From assembly GCA_013042375.1 (NCBI GenBank), contig JABDQH010000034.1, forward strand, positions 1 through 52,888: 52,888 bases of DNA, given 5' to 3'. Source of the DNA: Woeseiaceae bacterium (GTDB lineage Bacteria > Pseudomonadota > Gammaproteobacteria > Steroidobacterales > Woeseiaceae). The number at the start of each line of letters is the position of its first letter. Position 1 is the stretch's first letter. Positions 29,432 through 37,212 of the stretch are shown here, one piece after another. The notes beneath the pieces were generated by a model, which saw nothing but the letters and a program-made list of their open reading frames with translations, had not been told where the DNA came from and did not search any database. The position numbers and the translations under genes are program-made.

Positions 29432-29459
29432 TTGACAGCGCTGTCACGCCGTGTTGCAC
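29432..29459 (+). promoter_or_regulatory. LacI-type palindrome on the promoter of the GH81 gene
   Basis: The 14-base perfect palindrome TGACAGCGCTGTCA (29433-29446), with a central CG, is the form of LacI-family operators of carbohydrate genes. TTGACA (29432-29437), a consensus -35 box, overlaps its left half, and TGCACT follows at 17-base spacing as a weak -10. A bound repressor would block the promoter. No LacI gene is in the window. Confidence 0.6.
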
Positions 29460-29540
29460 TGTGCGCGAGTCTGTACGTGCAGATTCTCGTGCGTACCTGC
29501 CTTGTGCCTCCGCTCGCGATTTTCACTGCCGGGGTCAAGC

Positions 29541-32500
29541 ATGCTGACCAAACCAACACTATTTCTCATCTCGCTGCACGCGATGGTTTTCCTGCTGTCC
29601 GGCTGTGGTGGTGGCGGAGGCAGCGATACGCCCAATACCGGTTCGGCGGATCGTACGGCGCCCGTCATTACCATGAGCGGCTCGTCGACCGTCAATCACG
29701 AGCAGGGCACGGCTTACACAGACCCGGGTGCGACGGCGACCGACGCGGTTGACGGCTCGGTGCCCGTGACGACGTCGGGTTCGGTTGGCGCTGCCGCCGG
29801 CACGTATACACTGACTTATACCGCGACCGATAGCGCCGGCAATAGAGCGACGGCGACGCGCACGGTCATCGTGGCGGATACCACGGCTCCGGTAATAGAC
29901 ATGGTGGGCCCTGCTTCCATGAACCACGTGCAGGGAACGGCGTTCACAGACCCTGGAGCTACCGCGACGGACACCGTGGACGGTTCGGTCGCCGTCGTCA
30001 CGACGGGATCGGTCGACGATGCGGTCGGCACCTATACGCTCACCTATACGGCCACCGATGCGGCGGGCAACTCGGCGACCGCGTCGCGGACCGTTATCGT
30101 CGAGGCGCCGCCGCCCGGATCGGAAGCGACGGATCTGTGGGTTCTGGTCGACGGTGCCGTCGACCCGGCCTGGGATCGGGGCATCAGCGCATTCGACGAG
30201 GCGCTCGGCTTTGGGGAGTGCAACAATGATGGCGGCGCCGCGTGCCCGAGCATCAGCTGGGAGTTCGTCACCGACGACGAACGCGGTGAGGTGCTGCAGG
30301 TCACGCATGCCGCTTCCGGTGACCTGGCCGGCGTATTCATCGCCGCCAGCATTCCGCTCGATGTTTCGGGGTTTGCCAACGGCAGCGTCGTGTTCGACAT
30401 CAAGGTCGTCAGCGGCGACAGCAATATCACGATGAAGCTCGACTGCGTCTTTCCCTGTACCTCCGGTGAGCAGCAGCTCGGCAGCAAGGGCGCCGCAGGC
30501 TGGGAGACGGTCGAAGTGTCGTTTGCGACGCTCGTGGCCGGAGGGCTCGATCTGGGCAATGTGAATACGGGCATCGTCATCTGGGCGACTAACGCGACCA
30601 GCACGGTTTTCCAGATCGACAATGTGCGCTTCACGGGATTCGACGACAGTGGTCCGCCGCCGACCAGCGGCTACACCGTTACCGCCTATGGCGCAGGCAG
30701 TGTCTCGGACACCATCAACCCGGCCAGTTATCGCTGCGTCGTTGATTTTGGCAACTGGATCTACAATGCGGGTGTCGTCGCGCCCGCCATTCCTGCCTGT
30801 AACGCATCGACCGGCATTCCGACGGGTACGCCGACGCCTCTGCAGCCGCAGCTGACCGGCCCGGCAGCCGACAAGCCGACGCCGACCCACAAATGGTGGG
30901 GCTCGATCCCGTTCCTCGGTGAGATGACGATCGGCGACGCCAACGATGCCGCGTACATCACGCCGGACCCGATGATTGCCCGGGTGACGGACAGGGGTTT
31001 TCGCGTCATGGGGATTCCGTCGGGACTCACAAGCAGGGGCGATGGATTCCTGTACCCGATTCCCGACCCCTTCAGCGAGGTGTTCGACGGTGTGGCGATC
31101 GGCAATGCGGACTTCGCCAGCCTGGACGCCTACCTGAAAAACCACAGCGATGGGTCGGTGACGGTGGAGTGGCAGAGCGGCGGACAGGCCGTGATGGAAG
31201 CGACCTTCGTACACGGATCGCCGTATGTCTACATGACGGCATTCCAGGGTGAACTCGTGGTGCGCACACTGCGCACGGATGGTGGCGAGAAAGGGACTTT
31301 CTATAACCAGGGGAATAGCCTCGGCGTCTGGACCAATGTCGCGGGCAATCACAACAACTTCCTGGTAACCGGGGAGGGGACCACGACGTTCGGCAACATC
31401 GCGGGCAACGAGATCACGGTCAGCAATGCGGCGAATGCGCTGACGCTGACCTACTTGCCCCAGACCGCAGGCACGCCAGCCGATGCACTGACAGGCTTCT
31501 TCGAATCCCGGGCACGCAACATTGTCGCCGCTGTAGACATCGACTACTCAGTCAATCGCGCCACGAATGAGGTCACGGTCACTCACAGTTATCTTGATGG
31601 CCAGGGGGCGCCGATCGAGACCATCGCTGGCATGCACCCGCTGCACTGGAAGAACAGCGCACAGCCGACTTCCCAGTACCAGGTCAGGAGCGCCCGCGGC
31701 ACGATCAAGTTCAGCCAGACCGGCACTTTCTCCTACGAGCTGCCGTCGGTGGGCGTTTTGCCGGCCTTGCCCTCGATCGACGGCACGTTCGACCAGGCAA
31801 CCCTCGAAGGCCTGGTCAGTGATTTCGTTTCGCAAGGCCCCGCTGCCTGGAATGACCGCACCGACACCTACTGGGCGGGCAAAAACTACGGCAAGGTGGC
31901 AGAGCTTGTTGCAATCGCCGACTCGATCGGCATGAACGCCGAAGCAGCGCAGTTGCTCGACTGGCTGAAAGCGGAACTCGCCGACTGGTTTACCGCGGAA
32001 ACCAGCGGCAACCTCGACGTCTTCAAATACTTTGTCTACGACGACGAGTGGAATACCCTGCTCGGCCTGGAGGAATCATTCGCTTCCCACCAGCAGCTCA
32101 ATGACCATCATTTCCATTACGGCTATTTCGTGCGCGCGGCGGCCGAGGTTTGCCGCATGGACATCGCCTGGTGCGGTGCCGATCAGTACGGGCCGATGAT
32201 CGAGCTGTTGATTCGCGATTACGCAGGCGATGCCGACGATCCCATGTTCCCCCGCCTACGGAATTTCGATCCGGCCAACGGCTTTTCCTGGGCGTCCGGT
32301 CCCGCCAACTTCGCGCGCGGCAATAACAACGAGTCCACGTCCGAGGCGGCCAATGCCTACGGGGCGATCGTCTTGTATGGCTTGATCACGGGCAGGGACG
32401 ATCTCGTAGACAAGGGCATGTACCTGCATGCCTCGACGGCGGCAGCTTACTGGCAGTACTGGAACAACATCGACGGCTACAACAACCGCGGCACCGAGGA

Positions 32501-33062
32501 GGACAACTTCCCCGCCGGCTACAACAGGATTACGACGTCGATCATCTGGGGTGACGGCAGCGCTTTCGCGACCTGGTTCAGCGGGGCTTTCGCGCACATT
32601 CTCGGGATTCAGGGGCTACCCTCGAATCCCCTGATCCTGCACGTGGGGCAGTATGCTGACTACATGGCTGACTACGTAGCGCTGGGGCTGAGCGAGTCAT
32701 CCAACATCATGCCGTCGGGCCTGCCCGACGATCAGTGGCGCGACCTGTGGTGGAACCTCTGGGCGATGACCGATGCCGATGCGGCCATCGCCGACTACGA
32801 CACGGTAGCCGACTACGTACCCGAGGCGGGTGAGACGAAAGCGCACACCTATCACTGGATCCATACGTTCCGCCGACTGGGCCACATGCAAACCGGCACC
32901 GGAGCGCTCACAGCCGACTATCCGGCAGCGCTGGCCTTCGACAACAATGGTGTGACCAGCTACGTCGTGTACAACTTCACCGGGCAGGAACTGGCCGTTT
33001 CGTTCAGCGATGGCCAGATCGTCAATTCGGCACCCGACGGATTCACGCTTATTACAAACTGA
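29541..33062 (+). CDS. GH81 endo-beta-1,3-glucanase lipoprotein with Ig-like and carbohydrate-binding domains
   Basis: Cleaves laminarin or curdlan-type beta-1,3-glucan at the cell surface. The 1173-residue product has a lipoprotein signal (LLSGC, Cys22) and a Gly-rich linker. Two Ig-like DUF5011/HYR repeats follow (about 37-110 and 112-188, each with APVI...TAYTDPGATATD). Next is a galactose-binding-like module similar to the ExoP C-terminal domain (about 195-375), and a GH81 catalytic domain (about 400-1160). Catalytic candidates are D855 in NDHHFHYGYF and E931/E935 in NNNESTSEAAN; the 76-residue spacing equals that of D466 and E542 in Bacillus GH81 as I recall it. No TonB transporter or other glucanase is adjacent. 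Confidence 0.88.
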   Translation: MLTKPTLFLISLHAMVFLLSGCGGGGGSDTPNTGSADRTAPVITMSGSSTVNHEQGTAYTDPGATATDAVDGSVPVTTSGSVGAAAGTYTLTYTATDSAGNRATATRTVIVADTTAPVIDMVGPASMNHVQGTAFTDPGATATDTVDGSVAVVTTGSVDDAVGTYTLTYTATDAAGNSATASRTVIVEAPPPGSEATDLWVLVDGAVDPAWDRGISAFDEALGFGECNNDGGAACPSISWEFVTDDERGEVLQVTHAASGDLAGVFIAASIPLDVSGFANGSVVFDIKVVSGDSNITMKLDCVFPCTSGEQQLGSKGAAGWETVEVSFATLVAGGLDLGNVNTGIVIWATNATSTVFQIDNVRFTGFDDSGPPPTSGYTVTAYGAGSVSDTINPASYRCVVDFGNWIYNAGVVAPAIPACNASTGIPTGTPTPLQPQLTGPAADKPTPTHKWWGSIPFLGEMTIGDANDAAYITPDPMIARVTDRGFRVMGIPSGLTSRGDGFLYPIPDPFSEVFDGVAIGNADFASLDAYLKNHSDGSVTVEWQSGGQAVMEATFVHGSPYVYMTAFQGELVVRTLRTDGGEKGTFYNQGNSLGVWTNVAGNHNNFLVTGEGTTTFGNIAGNEITVSNAANALTLTYLPQTAGTPADALTGFFESRARNIVAAVDIDYSVNRATNEVTVTHSYLDGQGAPIETIAGMHPLHWKNSAQPTSQYQVRSARGTIKFSQTGTFSYELPSVGVLPALPSIDGTFDQATLEGLVSDFVSQGPAAWNDRTDTYWAGKNYGKVAELVAIADSIGMNAEAAQLLDWLKAELADWFTAETSGNLDVFKYFVYDDEWNTLLGLEESFASHQQLNDHHFHYGYFVRAAAEVCRMDIAWCGADQYGPMIELLIRDYAGDADDPMFPRLRNFDPANGFSWASGPANFARGNNNESTSEAANAYGAIVLYGLITGRDDLVDKGMYLHASTAAAYWQYWNNIDGYNNRGTEEDNFPAGYNRITTSIIWGDGSAFATWFSGAFAHILGIQGLPSNPLILHVGQYADYMADYVALGLSESSNIMPSGLPDDQWRDLWWNLWAMTDADAAIADYDTVADYVPEAGETKAHTYHWIHTFRRLGHMQTGTGALTADYPAALAFDNNGVTSYVVYNFTGQELAVSFSDGQIVNSAPDGFTLITN

Positions 33063-33191: not shown

Positions 33192-34457
33192 ATGTCTTTG
33201 ATTCTTCACACACGGCCGATGCGCGTGCCAGCCCGGGCGATCCGCTTCACCCACACGTTCGGCCTCGGCGGTATTGCCCTGGTGCTCTTCGGGTTGCTCG
33301 TGTTGTCGGGTGTCCTGATGATGTTCTCTTACGACCCGAGCCCGGAGCGGGCGTGGCAGTCGGTCGCCAGTTATCAGGAGGATACGCTTTTCGGCGGTCT
33401 CGTTCGGGGTGTCCATTACTGGAGCGCCAACCTGCTGCTCCCCGTCATTGTTTTGCACCTGTTGCGGGTCTTTCTGACAGGTGGATTTCATGCCCGTCGC
33501 CGATCGAACTGGCATCTGGGGCTCGGTATTGCGTTCTTCATATTCCTGTCGGGCTTTACCGGCTACCTGCTGCCCTGGGACCAGACAGCCTACTGGGCCA
33601 TCACGATCTGTACCGAGATGCTGGGCCAGGTGCCCGTCATAGGGCCCGCGATCAAGAGCGCCGTGATCGGCGGTAGCGAGATCAATGCGGCGACGGCGGT
33701 GAACTTCTATGCGTTACACGTCGTCGTGACACCACTGGCGATGGTCGCCCTGCTGACCTGGCATTTCTGGCTGATTCGGACGGCCGGGGGCGTGGTGCTG
33801 CCGACGGCACGCGCGGACGAAGAGGGCCGGTACTTACCGTTCTCGCCGGATTTGCTGCACAGGGAAGCCGTCGTATCGGCCGGCGTTGTGGCCGCGGTCC
33901 TTGTCCTGGCTTTCGTGTTTGACGCGCCACTCGGCGATCCGGCCAACCCCGGGATCAGCCCGAACCCGACCAAAGCGCCCTGGTATTTCGCGGGTTTGCA
34001 GGAATTGCTGATCCATTTTGATGCACTGTTCGCAGTACTTGTCATGCCTTTGTGTATCGTAGCAGGGCTGATCGCGGCACCGTTTGTATGCGATGGTTCG
34101 GAACCAGCCGGAGACTGGTTCCTGACCGGCAACGGGCGGCGCGTGGCGCTGGTCGCTGCGGTGACGGCAGTGGTCGTCGTACCGGCGTTCATCGTTTTCA
34201 GCGAGTTGGTGGTAGGGCAGGGCGGCTGGATGCCCGGCGCTCCCACGGTGGTGAGCAATGGGCTGATCCCGTTTGCGATCCTGGGTATTGGCGTTGCCGC
34301 GTTCGGCATCGTGGTTGGCAAGATCTTTTCTCCGACAAGGAATGAGCTGGTGCAAGCAGTGTTCGTGTTTTTCTTCGTCGCGTTTCTGGTCCTGACAATG
34401 GCCGGTGTCTGGTTCCGTGGGGCCGGCATGGACCTGGTGTGGCCGTGGCGGAGTTAG
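33192..34457 (+). CDS. Cytochrome b of a bc/b6f-like complex
   Basis: Integral di-haem cytochrome b of a quinol-oxidising complex, 421 residues. Haem ligands are the pairs H75/H89 (14 apart) and H176/H191 (15 apart). The 15-residue gap in the second pair is the cytochrome b6 type rather than the bc1 type. The quinol-site motif is APWYF instead of PEWY, so the usual glutamate is absent. About eight or nine helices, including a C-terminal part with three or four extra segments, so b6 and subunit-IV-like halves are fused. The next gene, a Rieske protein, overlaps by 19 bases. No cytochrome c1 follows; a multihaem cytochrome takes its place. Confidence 0.88.
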   Translation: MSLILHTRPMRVPARAIRFTHTFGLGGIALVLFGLLVLSGVLMMFSYDPSPERAWQSVASYQEDTLFGGLVRGVHYWSANLLLPVIVLHLLRVFLTGGFHARRRSNWHLGLGIAFFIFLSGFTGYLLPWDQTAYWAITICTEMLGQVPVIGPAIKSAVIGGSEINAATAVNFYALHVVVTPLAMVALLTWHFWLIRTAGGVVLPTARADEEGRYLPFSPDLLHREAVVSAGVVAAVLVLAFVFDAPLGDPANPGISPNPTKAPWYFAGLQELLIHFDALFAVLVMPLCIVAGLIAAPFVCDGSEPAGDWFLTGNGRRVALVAAVTAVVVVPAFIVFSELVVGQGGWMPGAPTVVSNGLIPFAILGIGVAAFGIVVGKIFSPTRNELVQAVFVFFFVAFLVLTMAGVWFRGAGMDLVWPWRS

Positions 34458-34933
34458 ATCCAGGTCGACGGCGTTTCCTCGTTCGCCTGATGCGCGTGCT
34501 TGGCGGCGTCGCGTTGCTCGAGGCGGGGTGGATCGCGATCTCGAATTTCGTGCCAGGCGCACGCGGCAAGGCATCGCCGGATGGGCCCGGCGTCATCGTG
34601 GCCGGTCCTGTGGAACGTTTCGCGCCCGGGAGCGTCACGCCGTTTGTCGCTGGTAAGTGTTACCTGGTGCGCGACGAAGACGGCGGCTTCCTCGCGCTGC
34701 ATCGCAAGTGCACGCACCTCGGCTGCAGCGTTCCGTGGAACGAAACCGAGCGGCGTTTCGCGTGTCCCTGTCATGCGTCGGCGTTCGACATTCACGGCGA
34801 CGTCGTAAACGCGCCGGCCTCGCGTCCTCTCGACCTGTTCGCTGTGACGATTCGTGACGGCGTCGTGAGAATCGACACCAGCAGGCCAATACGGCGCACC
34901 GTATTCGAGCCTGGCCAGGTCGTGCGAGCCTGA
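34439..34933 (+). CDS. Rieske [2Fe-2S] protein
   Basis: Iron-sulfur subunit of the same complex, 164 residues. An N-terminal transmembrane anchor (about 14-38, after a twin-arginine-like RRRFLVRL) precedes a Rieske fold. Cluster ligands are C91 and H93 in CTHLGC and C109 and H112 in CPCH; the stabilising disulfide is C96-C111. The GTG start lies within the end of cytochrome b, indicating coupled translation. The twin-arginine motif suggests export of the folded protein by Tat, as for other Rieske proteins. Confidence 0.9.
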   Translation: MAVAELDPGRRRFLVRLMRVLGGVALLEAGWIAISNFVPGARGKASPDGPGVIVAGPVERFAPGSVTPFVAGKCYLVRDEDGGFLALHRKCTHLGCSVPWNETERRFACPCHASAFDIHGDVVNAPASRPLDLFAVTIRDGVVRIDTSRPIRRTVFEPGQVVRA

Positions 34934-34935
34934 TC

Positions 34936-37212
34936 ATGAGGAACTGGTACGTCACGGGCGTCGTCGCGCTGGTCATCATCGTTGTTGCGATCCCCCTGTA
35001 CGCGGTTCGGCAGGTCGCGCAGGGTGACGCCGGCACACCCGCCGCAGCCCCGGACGCGACGTTTGTCGGCCGTGAGGAATGCGTCGATTGCCATACGGCC
35101 GCTTACGAGAGCTGGCTCGGCTCGCACCATGACGATGCGATGGATGTCGCCAACGCGCAGACTGTCCTGGGCGATTTCAGCGACGCGGAATTCACCCATA
35201 ACGGTGTCACGTCACGCTTCTATCGCAGGGACGACAAGTTCCTCGTGGAAACCGAGGGTGCCGACGGGGAGTTGGCCGAGTTCGAAGTGCGCTACACGTT
35301 CGGCGTCGAGCCCTTGCAGCAATATCTCGTGCCTTTCCCGGGAGGCCGCCTCCAGGCCCTGTGGATCGCGTGGGATACCGAAAGCAAACGCTGGTTCCAT
35401 CTCTACGAGGACGAGGACATCCCTGCCGGCGACTGGTTGCACTGGACGCGCAATGGCCAGAACTGGAACGGCATGTGCGCCGAGTGTCACTCGACCAACC
35501 TGCGGAAAAACTTTGACGCGGAAACGGGCGAATTCAACACCGAATGGTCCGAGATCGACGTCAGTTGCGAGGCCTGTCACGGACCGGGCTCGATCCATGT
35601 CGAATGGGCGCAGATCGACCCGATGGGCCGCCCCGATCTCGACAACTACGGCCTGACGGTCAGGACGAGCGGCCTGGACAACGTCGGGCTCGTCGAGGTC
35701 TGCGCCGCCTGCCATTCCCGGCGCCGGGAGATCGGCGACTACGATCATGCGCAGCAATCGACGTATGAGAGCGTCGCGCCGATACTCCTCGCAGAGGGCA
35801 TCTACCATCACGACGGGCAGATCCTCGAGGAAGACTACGTCTGGGGCTCTTTTCTGCAGAGCAAGATGTATGCGAACGGGGTCCGTTGCGATGACTGCCA
35901 TGACGTGCACAGCCTCGCACTGCACCAGCAGGGCAATGCGCTGTGCCTGCAGTGTCATCTCGGCGAGACCTACGACAGCTACGAGCACCACTTCCACCAG
36001 GCAGAGGTCGAGGGTGAGCCGAGTGACGGCGCACTGTGCGTGAAATGTCACATGCCGGAACAGGTCTACATGGGCAACGACTGGCGCGCCGACCACAGCA
36101 TCCGTGTGCCGCGGCCCGACCTGAGTCTCGAGATCGGCACGCCGAATTCCTGCAGCCAGAGCGGCTGTCACGATGACCAGACCGTCGAGTGGGCCGTCGA
36201 CGCGTATACGAAGTGGTACGGCACGACCCGCAAGCCGCACTTCGGCAGCGTCTTCGCCGCAGCCCGAGCCGGGAATCCGGAGGCAGAAGATGGCTTGCAC
36301 CAGATCATCGGGAACGAGCTGCACCCGGTGATCGTGCGCGCGACGGCGCTGGGCGAGCTGCGGGCGTTCCCGGGTGAGCGCACGAACCAGGCGCTGCGGC
36401 AGGCGCTCGCCGATGAGGAGGCGATGATCCGCGTGGCGGCCGCCGAGACTTTCGCCGGGCAACCGCCCGAGCAGCTGGCCGGATTCCTCGGTCCGCTGCT
36501 GTTCGACCCTGTGCACGGCGTGCGTATCGCCGTGGCCTCCCAGCTCGCCGGCGTCGATCGTGCATACCTCGAGCCGCACGAGAGGCCCGCTCTCGACGCG
36601 GCGCTGGCCGAACACATTGCGGCCAACGAGCGCAACCTGGACTTCGCGGCCTCGGGCATGAACCTCGGCAACCTGTACGCGGGGCAGGGCAACCTCGAGC
36701 TCGCCGAGAAGTACTACCGCATGGCGCTCGACGTCGACGACCTGTTCTTCCCGGCGCAACAGAACCTTGCCGTGTTGCTCAGCGGGCAGGGCAGGAACGA
36801 CGAAGCCGAGCAGCTCCTGCGCGCGGTCCTCGACGAGTATCCGGAGCAGCACGATACGGCCTATTCCCTGGCATTGCTGCTCGTCGGTGTCGGCAGGGCC
36901 GACGAAGGCCTCGAGTATCTCGGGCGCGCAGCCGGGGCGATGCCGGAGCGGGCGAGAATCCAGTACAACTACGGCCTGCTGCTGGCGCAGATGCTGCAGG
37001 ATGACGAGGCCGAGGCGGCGCTGAGCCGAGCGCTCGGCCTCGAGCCGGAGAACCTCGATTACCTGTATGCGATGGCCGATTTTCTCTACCGACGCGATCG
37101 TCTCGACGATGCACTGGAGATCGCGGACCGGATGATCGAGGCTCATCCGCAGCAGCGCGTCGGTTACGACATAAAGGCGGCGATCAGGAACCGGCAGCAG
37201 CAGGCTCCGTAG
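34936..37212 (+). CDS. Multihaem cytochrome c with HEAT-like and TPR repeats
   Basis: A 758-residue periplasmic electron carrier anchored by one N-terminal helix (about 7-25). It has seven CxxCH haem sites at residues 49, 181, 211, 256, 318, 337 and 368, plus CSQSGCH (406-412), a possible eighth haem with a CX4CH motif. The first part resembles the cytochrome c554 family (ECVDCHTAAYESWLGSHH). After about residue 420 come HEAT-like helical repeats (HPVIVRATALGELRAFPG), then four or five TPRs (about 570-745, LAEKYYRMALDVDD). It starts 2 bases after the Rieske stop, so it is the probable acceptor from the b/Rieske pair. The 3' end overlaps the convergent MFS gene by 29 bases. Confidence 0.88.
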   Translation: MRNWYVTGVVALVIIVVAIPLYAVRQVAQGDAGTPAAAPDATFVGREECVDCHTAAYESWLGSHHDDAMDVANAQTVLGDFSDAEFTHNGVTSRFYRRDDKFLVETEGADGELAEFEVRYTFGVEPLQQYLVPFPGGRLQALWIAWDTESKRWFHLYEDEDIPAGDWLHWTRNGQNWNGMCAECHSTNLRKNFDAETGEFNTEWSEIDVSCEACHGPGSIHVEWAQIDPMGRPDLDNYGLTVRTSGLDNVGLVEVCAACHSRRREIGDYDHAQQSTYESVAPILLAEGIYHHDGQILEEDYVWGSFLQSKMYANGVRCDDCHDVHSLALHQQGNALCLQCHLGETYDSYEHHFHQAEVEGEPSDGALCVKCHMPEQVYMGNDWRADHSIRVPRPDLSLEIGTPNSCSQSGCHDDQTVEWAVDAYTKWYGTTRKPHFGSVFAAARAGNPEAEDGLHQIIGNELHPVIVRATALGELRAFPGERTNQALRQALADEEAMIRVAAAETFAGQPPEQLAGFLGPLLFDPVHGVRIAVASQLAGVDRAYLEPHERPALDAALAEHIAANERNLDFAASGMNLGNLYAGQGNLELAEKYYRMALDVDDLFFPAQQNLAVLLSGQGRNDEAEQLLRAVLDEYPEQHDTAYSLALLLVGVGRADEGLEYLGRAAGAMPERARIQYNYGLLLAQMLQDDEAEAALSRALGLEPENLDYLYAMADFLYRRDRLDDALEIADRMIEAHPQQRVGYDIKAAIRNRQQQAP

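Follow-up and report, generated by a model that had tools for sequence, protein, structure and literature searches.

A Rieske/cytochrome b gene trio with an octahaem-TPR cytochrome at the position of cytochrome c1 or f

Introduction

Complex III is a textbook energy-conserving enzyme, and related systems in which a Rieske/cytochrome b core is associated with multihaem cytochromes have been described. In the Kuenenia stuttgartiensis complexes Kustd1480-1485 and Kuste4569-4574, a b6-like cytochrome b and a Rieske protein occur with hexa- or octahaem cytochromes c that replace cytochrome f (PMC12954380). In the Nap cluster of Caldithrix abyssi (Cabys_2558-2556), Rieske and b genes lie beside the octahaem eHao gene without a cytochrome c1, and electrons are proposed to pass from Rieske/b to the multihaem protein (PMC5317091, where Dibrova 2013 is the source given for multihaem proteins as acceptors of early Rieske proteins). 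Cytochrome b and Rieske proteins also accompany multihaem cytochromes in the Geobacter bc-complex cluster GSU2930-2937 (PMC2825233), and an electron path via multihaem cytochromes c is proposed for a Methanoperedens Rieske/b cluster with two pentahaem cytochromes (PMC4683180). Here, we describe a trio of same-strand genes at 33192-37212 (+) of a Woeseiaceae contig (JABDQH010000034.1, positions 1 to 52,888; this whole 52,888-nucleotide stretch is called the window), which encodes a cytochrome b, a Rieske protein and an octahaem cytochrome with HEAT-like and tetratricopeptide repeats (TPR).

The trio probably encodes one inner-membrane, quinol-oxidising Rieske/cytochrome b complex in which the Rieske electron is delivered to the octahaem protein instead of cytochrome c1 or f, a reading built on gene order, homology, conserved ligands and the conservation of the trio as a unit. 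The b/Rieske core would here be coupled to an eight-haem protein, in a cassette that has moved between phyla. The source genome spans 2.76 Mb and is 84 percent complete; the window is its contig C105.

Results and Discussion

Subunits encoded by the trio

The three genes are as tightly joined as the initial annotation described: the Rieske open reading frame (ORF) starts with GTG and overlaps the cytochrome b ORF by 19 bases, an overlap also present in four other genus members (L026, L027, L029 and L056), and the octahaem ORF begins after a 2-base gap. Within the window, neither a c1 nor an f gene lies next to the trio, in agreement with the absence reported there, and the octahaem gene occupies the corresponding position.

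Cytochrome b (33192..34457, +; 421 aa; Pfam Cytochrome_B, 135.9 bits) combines an N-terminal half that resembles cytochrome b6 with a fused second half that matches subunit-IV-type models. The histidine pairs H75/H89 and H176/H191, which ligate the b haems, have spacings of 14 and 15 and do not vary among 19 aligned relatives, so that the earlier description of a di-haem cytochrome b with b6-type histidine spacing stands, and the five solved chains matching at E <= 1e-30 are all cytochrome b6. The AlphaFold model of this subunit has a pLDDT of 82. The best NCBIfam model is ExtP (235.2 bits, below its cut-off of 290), and ExtQ also scores below its cut-off (44.6 against 150); ExtP and ExtQ are two separate models, whereas the one b protein of the trio spans both. 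The cysteine in the YCLGG segment of cytochrome b6 binds haem c_n in the b6f complex; it is replaced in the trio by G24, which aligns with it (FGLGG here). At the quinol site, the motif APWY (residues 262-265; 33975..33986, +) replaces PEWY, as first noted, and it is invariant in the b subunits of 8 genus members. Because A262 and W264 are invariant and Y265 nearly so in the 19-row alignment, where P263 is not, the alignment marks APWY as a trait of the whole clade. In one Desulfobacteraceae contig (L085 6800-8247), the trio b is split over two reading frames, through an assembly error or a broken gene, with the Rieske and octahaem genes intact.

The Rieske [2Fe-2S] protein (34439..34933, +; 164 aa; Pfam Rieske, 50.9 bits) carries both cluster boxes, CTHLGC and CPCHAS (extending to CPCHASAF), and begins with a Tat-type RRxFL motif in which R11 is invariant and R10 nearly so, all of which fits the Tat-like Rieske protein proposed initially. 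The two b histidine pairs, together with the CTHLGC and CPCH boxes, place the trio in the Rieske/cytochrome b superfamily. By the cluster, Ser114 is kept and Phe116 stands in place of Tyr, both invariant in 17 rows. The same Ser/Phe pair is found in Kustd1480, which titrates at +335 mV (PMC12954380), and by this analogy a high-potential Rieske protein is possible in the trio.

The third gene (34936..37212, +) encodes a membrane-anchored octahaem cytochrome c of 758 aa. AlphaFold predicts an N-terminal membrane helix at residues 2-29 (34939..35022, +), and the hydrophobic stretch is kept in trio members; by eye, 14 relatives encoded by solo genes start in a signal-peptide-like and often lipoprotein-like manner. 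The haem domain (C49 to H412; 35080..36171, +) contains seven CxxCH motifs plus CSQSGCH (CX4CH), as listed in the initial annotation. All eight haem sites are kept in 19/19 trio contigs with a complete haem domain, the remaining two of the 21 trio contigs described below (L061 and L063) being left out of the count because they end inside the octahaem gene. The eighth site is CX4CH in 5 and CxxCH in 14 of these 19, and its retention in all of them indicates that CSQSGCH is a true haem site.

In searches of solved structures with a haem-domain profile, the best matches are OcwA (6i5b, E 2.9e-22) and the surface multihaem cytochrome 6qvm (E 2.3e-11); c554 (1bvb, E 4.6e-4) and MccA (4rkm, E 9.6e-4) follow more weakly. 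The domain thus has profile homology to the haem family of NrfA, HAO and OcwA. The CxxCK catalytic haem of NrfA is absent, since all eight sites end in CH, and PF02335 (NrfA) is not among the 25 Pfam matches of the protein at E <= 0.1.

The haem domain is followed by helical repeats, of which the TPR part (residues 549-756; 36580..37203, +) is established by several Pfam TPR models over their cut-offs and by AlphaFold. The HEAT-like part (residues 417-537; 36184..36546, +) is seen in the AlphaFold model, with the Pfam HEAT_2 score (25.5 bits) slightly under the cut-off of 27.7. The AlphaFold model (21 rows) has a mean pLDDT of 67, with both repeat regions at good confidence and most of the haem domain below 50, which precludes a comparison of the haem-domain fold; the best 50 Foldseek matches listed for the model are TPR and helical-repeat proteins only.

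Recurrence across phyla

The cytochrome b alignment was scanned against contigs of 84,980 species, of which the best 80 contigs were kept, so that the counts are lower bounds, and these were sorted into classes by hand. The order b-Rieske-octahaem on one strand is present in at least 21 of the best 80. Eight others, all Chloroflexi (L074, L080, L081, L082, L084, L086, L088 and L089), carry b and Rieske genes followed by a trihaem membrane-anchored cytochrome, as expected if the third slot holds the acceptor of the Rieske protein. Four (L060, L072, L076 and L087) end before the third gene is readable, and in the other 47 the b genes are more distant, have a Rieske gene close by and are accompanied by different cytochromes or by no cytochrome.

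The 21 trio contigs bear the NCBI phylum labels Pseudomonadota, Thermodesulfobacteriota, Acidobacteriota, Myxococcota, Bacteroidota, Calditrichota and Ignavibacteriota, in addition to one unassigned record, and their host titles point mostly to sediment or anaerobe lineages. A 22nd trio is located on the Aureibacter tunicatorum plasmid pAT1, where the genes are annotated as cytochrome b, ubiquinol-cytochrome c reductase iron-sulfur subunit and multiheme c-type cytochrome. The synteny search suggested at the outset therefore recovers the trio under seven phylum labels, which supports the original proposal of an alternative b/Rieske complex with a multihaem protein replacing c1 or f. Among viral contigs, two stretches matched a pattern and none was confirmed. 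Clustering of the neighbouring genes in 29 contigs (21 trio, 8 Chloroflexi) reveals no conserved fourth gene, with no other family in more than 5.

Orthologs of the b subunit are found in 8/73 genomes of the genus and are 57-67 percent identical. Six of these eight loci can be read downstream (the source genome, G003, G026, G027, G429 and G459), and all are b-Rieske-octahaem, although in two the contig stops within the octahaem gene; the contig of G432 ends just past the Rieske gene. Linkage of the trio within the genus is strong but not absolute. A class-wide search for the b subunit at E <= 1e-45 gives 0/368 other sampled genomes outside the genus, despite which a Chromatiales contig (L064) carries the trio.

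A b tree of 52 rows was built from the 21 scan contigs, 7 genus rows including the window, 7/8 of the Chloroflexi, 16/47 of the other b genes and one canonical b. In this tree, 26 trio members fall into a single group with 2 contigs whose downstream ends cannot be read (support 100/98). An octahaem tree of 41 rows separates 25 trio members and 2 unlinked Woeseiaceae genes from 14 solo relatives (100/100), with the solo rows taken only from the order of the window and the root arbitrary. Both trees join Woeseiaceae with Acidobacteriota, the Chromatiales contig L064 with Desulfobacteraceae L062, and L079 with Desulfobulbus L090. Because the trees share these odd cross-phylum placements, the trio moves between phyla as a unit. 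The b and octahaem distances correlate with an r of 0.71 over 20 contigs, a value reached in 0/5000 permutations.

Comparison with described complexes

The trio resembles bc1 and b6f complexes in the b haem ligands, the Rieske ligands, the b6-type spacing of 14/15 and the subunit-IV-like half, which is fused here, and differs from them in the absence of c1/f, in APWY instead of PEWY, in the glycine at the haem c_n cysteine and in the octahaem-TPR subunit. Alternative complex III (Act, with the gene set ActABCDEF) was left aside, as the trio has both b and Rieske genes. The Kuenenia complexes, in contrast to the trio, have split b and subunit IV proteins, an NAD(P) oxidoreductase subunit and haem c_n, and neither "TPR" nor "tetratricopeptide" occurs in the main text of PMC12954380; no Kuenenia-type NAD(P) oxidoreductase subunit is conserved in the trio neighbourhoods of the 29 clustered contigs. 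The Geobacter cluster includes four c-type cytochromes with 2, 10, 12 and 5 haems (PMC2825233), and the archaeal Methanoperedens cluster encodes a c1/f-type protein in addition to its pentahaem proteins (PMC4683180). The eHao of Caldithrix abyssi was considered as the same protein and rejected: in a genome that is likely this species (G484), the Nap cluster ends (L166 4971-8988) in the order Rieske-b-octahaem, the b is a different one of 350 aa with PEWY, and the 538-aa octahaem protein has no tblastn match to the trio octahaem protein.

OcwA of Thermincola potens (6i5b) is similar to the haem domain by profile and in an aligned His-His motif, whereas it is a soluble surface protein with nine haems and a C-terminal three-helix bundle in the place of HEAT/TPR repeats, and a b/Rieske partner is not mentioned in the excerpts of PMC6703420. 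The review PMC6295460, which covers quinol oxidases in extracellular transfer, does not contain the word "Rieske". The exact trio with an octahaem-TPR protein is not named in the matches listed by searches of open-licence papers, in keeping with the initial impression of an undescribed form. Since related Rieske/b-multihaem complexes are already in print, the trio is a real but uncharacterised variant and not a new kind of complex.

The proposed complex and its host context

From these data, we infer the assembly of a complex, a Q-cycle and the direction of electron flow. Cytochrome b and the Rieske protein would enclose the outer (Qo) site, where quinol would be oxidised. From there, one electron would pass via both b haems to another quinone site and the other via the mobile Rieske domain to the octahaem protein. 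The latter, held by its own N-terminal helix, would substitute for c1 or f, and its haem chain would store electrons and pass them to periplasmic partners. The HEAT/TPR tail may plausibly provide the docking surface.

Several observations weigh against this reading. The predicted model of the haem domain is poor. In G018, the b/Rieske genes (L055 2416-3868, ending inside Rieske) and the octahaem ortholog (L028 1342-3603) are on separate contigs, and an unrelated outer-membrane-like gene, with no b/Rieske, lies directly upstream of the latter. G035 has an octahaem ortholog and only ordinary b matches, with no trio-type b. The correlation of the b and octahaem distances is also expected from shared descent alone. 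Additionally, the source genome contains a canonical Rieske-b-c1 set on contig C84 (L025 5227-7812), which makes the trio dispensable for its ordinary respiration. A separate canonical bc1 had been named in advance as a reason for doubt if the cluster was not expressed with it or did not recur elsewhere; such a bc1 does exist, but the three genes are found together in other genomes.

The respiratory background differs between host groups. Each of the eight trio hosts of the genus has a second, bc1-typical b match and a cytochrome c1, so that trio and normal bc1 coexist there, whereas c1 is detected in 1/20 and absent in 19/20 hosts outside the genus (genomes of unstated completeness), most of which therefore seem to lack it. 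Terminal partners were searched in 55 genomes. Full-length NrfA is encoded in 6/20 hosts outside the genus and 1/8 inside, the source genome not being among them; haem-copper oxidase (COX1) is present in 8/8 genus hosts and 14/20 others, and NosZ (nos_propeller) in 0/8 and 2/20. None of the three is thus general among the hosts, and with no conserved fourth gene, the suggestion that the TPR tail docks a terminal reductase finds no support in these data. Among genus hosts, the menaquinone markers PF02621 and MenD (over cut-off) are each found in 0/8, and at least one of the two is found in 14/20 hosts elsewhere. Ubiquinol is therefore the probable substrate of this same complex in one of the two groups, and menaquinol in the second, a contrast that offers a way to test how quinone type and Rieske acceptor set the energy yield.

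Alternative explanations

The strongest alternative, which we regard as possible and clearly less likely than the proposed complex, is that the octahaem protein is also the terminal reductase, with a five-coordinate haem under a His-His pair acting on a substrate such as nitrite or hydroxylamine, so that the trio would be a self-contained quinol:acceptor reductase. Two haems of the haem-domain relative OcwA are open, with a His-His motif over each, and the protein reduces both nitrite and hydroxylamine, but its nitrite turnover is slow (PMC6703420). The second of these motifs aligns with H351/H352 of the octahaem protein (HMMER alignment with columns counted by hand; both His-His motifs are offset by 29), and H351 is present in 26/26 and H352 in 25/26 trio members. 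However, H352 is found in just 7/14 solo relatives, and the CxxCK site is absent. A five-coordinate haem may be present, but the eight conserved or nearly conserved non-motif histidines (H65, H221, H325, H351, H352, H354, H387 and H435) would suffice for eight bis-His haems. The lack of a conserved neighbouring reductase in the 29 contigs and of full-length NrfA in most checked hosts is consistent with such a reductase, as is the proposed joining of Rieske/b to HAO-like octahaem proteins in Kuenenia and Caldithrix.

Somewhat less likely again is a role in an extracellular or outer-membrane path, in which the octahaem protein would hand electrons to other multihaem cytochromes and on to a metal, an electrode or a partner cell. 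The two best solved matches of the haem domain, OcwA (PMC6703420) and 6qvm, are surface multihaem cytochromes; mtrCAB has been reported in sediment Woeseiaceae (PMC12175321), and the mostly sediment or anaerobe titles of the hosts point the same way. Against this, no porin-cytochrome genes are conserved beside the trio in the 29 contigs, which is the extent of the search for them.

Reversed or unusually bifurcated electron flow, in which a high-potential Rieske protein would drive the reduction of quinone or NAD(P) as proposed for the Kuenenia complexes, appears improbable. The best match of the Rieske profile among solved structures is 9rk4 and the third is 9rk3, which from their names seem to be the structures of PMC12954380, and the Ser114/Phe116 pair is that of Kustd1480; however, the trio neighbourhoods of the 29 contigs lack a conserved NAD(P) oxidoreductase gene, and G24 stands where the cysteine for haem c_n would be. 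Adjacency by chance of two separate systems, as the unlinked cases in G018 and G035 and the numerous octahaem-TPR genes that stand alone on plasmids or in genomes of the order might suggest, is highly improbable given that the same order is conserved in at least 21 contigs under seven phylum labels, with parallel trees and the solo relatives in a separate group.

Arylsulfatase genes near octahaem-TPR genes

Octahaem-TPR genes, in trios or solo, often adjoin arylsulfatase genes in several phyla. An arylsulfatase gene lies directly upstream of the trio on Aureibacter pAT1, 0.2 kb downstream in Desulfoluna (L065 11362-12900), 0.25 kb upstream in Prolixibacteraceae (L077 5262-6728) and 2 kb downstream in L062 (8430-9968). 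Solo octahaem genes with an adjoining arylsulfatase occur in rhizobia, methanotrophs, Vibrio, Pseudoalteromonas and a Rhodobacterales strain, with a 4-base overlap of the two genes in Methylosinus. Further arylsulfatase-type genes are located at L140 2439-3856, L139 908-3337, L173 4355-6817, L196 25840-28104, L197 22268-23764, L200 27301-28971, L201 27630-29300, L202 24102-25676 and L175 9881-11383. Rhizobial megaplasmids, pSymA among them, commonly carry solo octahaem-TPR genes (e.g., L139 and L201), which are labelled there simply as tetratricopeptide repeat protein or multiheme c-type cytochrome; 145 plasmid records match at E <= 1e-60.

The association was tested by tblastn with 11 sulfatases from these same neighbourhoods, and leaving out the own query of each locus does not change the counts of positive stretches. 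A sulfatase is found in 4/26 trio stretches (4/25 as tested; L056 and L059 are one contig, and L028 is without b/Rieske) compared with 0/53 b-family control contigs (Fisher p 0.009), but the two sets of hosts differ taxonomically. Near the solo genes of the order, a sulfatase is present in 4/18 cases (3 within 3 kb) compared with 0/20 other stretches of the same contigs (p 0.04). Eleven of 164 plasmid records were picked by hand to represent 9 genera, Rhizobium and Sinorhizobium with two records each; counts per genus are not independent. A sulfatase lies within 3 kb in 9, 16 kb away in one (Alteromonas) and is lacking in one (Qingshengfaniella). On seven long plasmid stretches, 5/9 sulfatase genes fall in the near 15 percent (p 0.005). 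The other exceptions are 22/26 trio stretches and 14/18 solo stretches of the order, and nothing on point appears among the literature matches listed for such a link.

The link is an association and not a function. If it is functional, membrane electron transfer would have a role outside the current picture. In a bolder reading, the trio might be a separate class of complex III, spread as a cross-phylum cassette, in which the octahaem-TPR protein is both Rieske acceptor and an enzyme with a periplasmic job tied to arylsulfatases. Formylglycine formation is a redox step, and the protein could, for example, be a redox partner that matures or serves secreted sulfatases, or could handle redox-active phenols that they release; we give little credence to either the separate class or these sulfatase roles.

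No sulfatase is detected in the window by tblastn. A large gene on the same strand (29451-33062) lies 129 bases upstream of the trio; by eye, it contains repeated Ig-like stretches and has a glucanase-like look, and it finds no match in those trio loci that were examined in other genus members.

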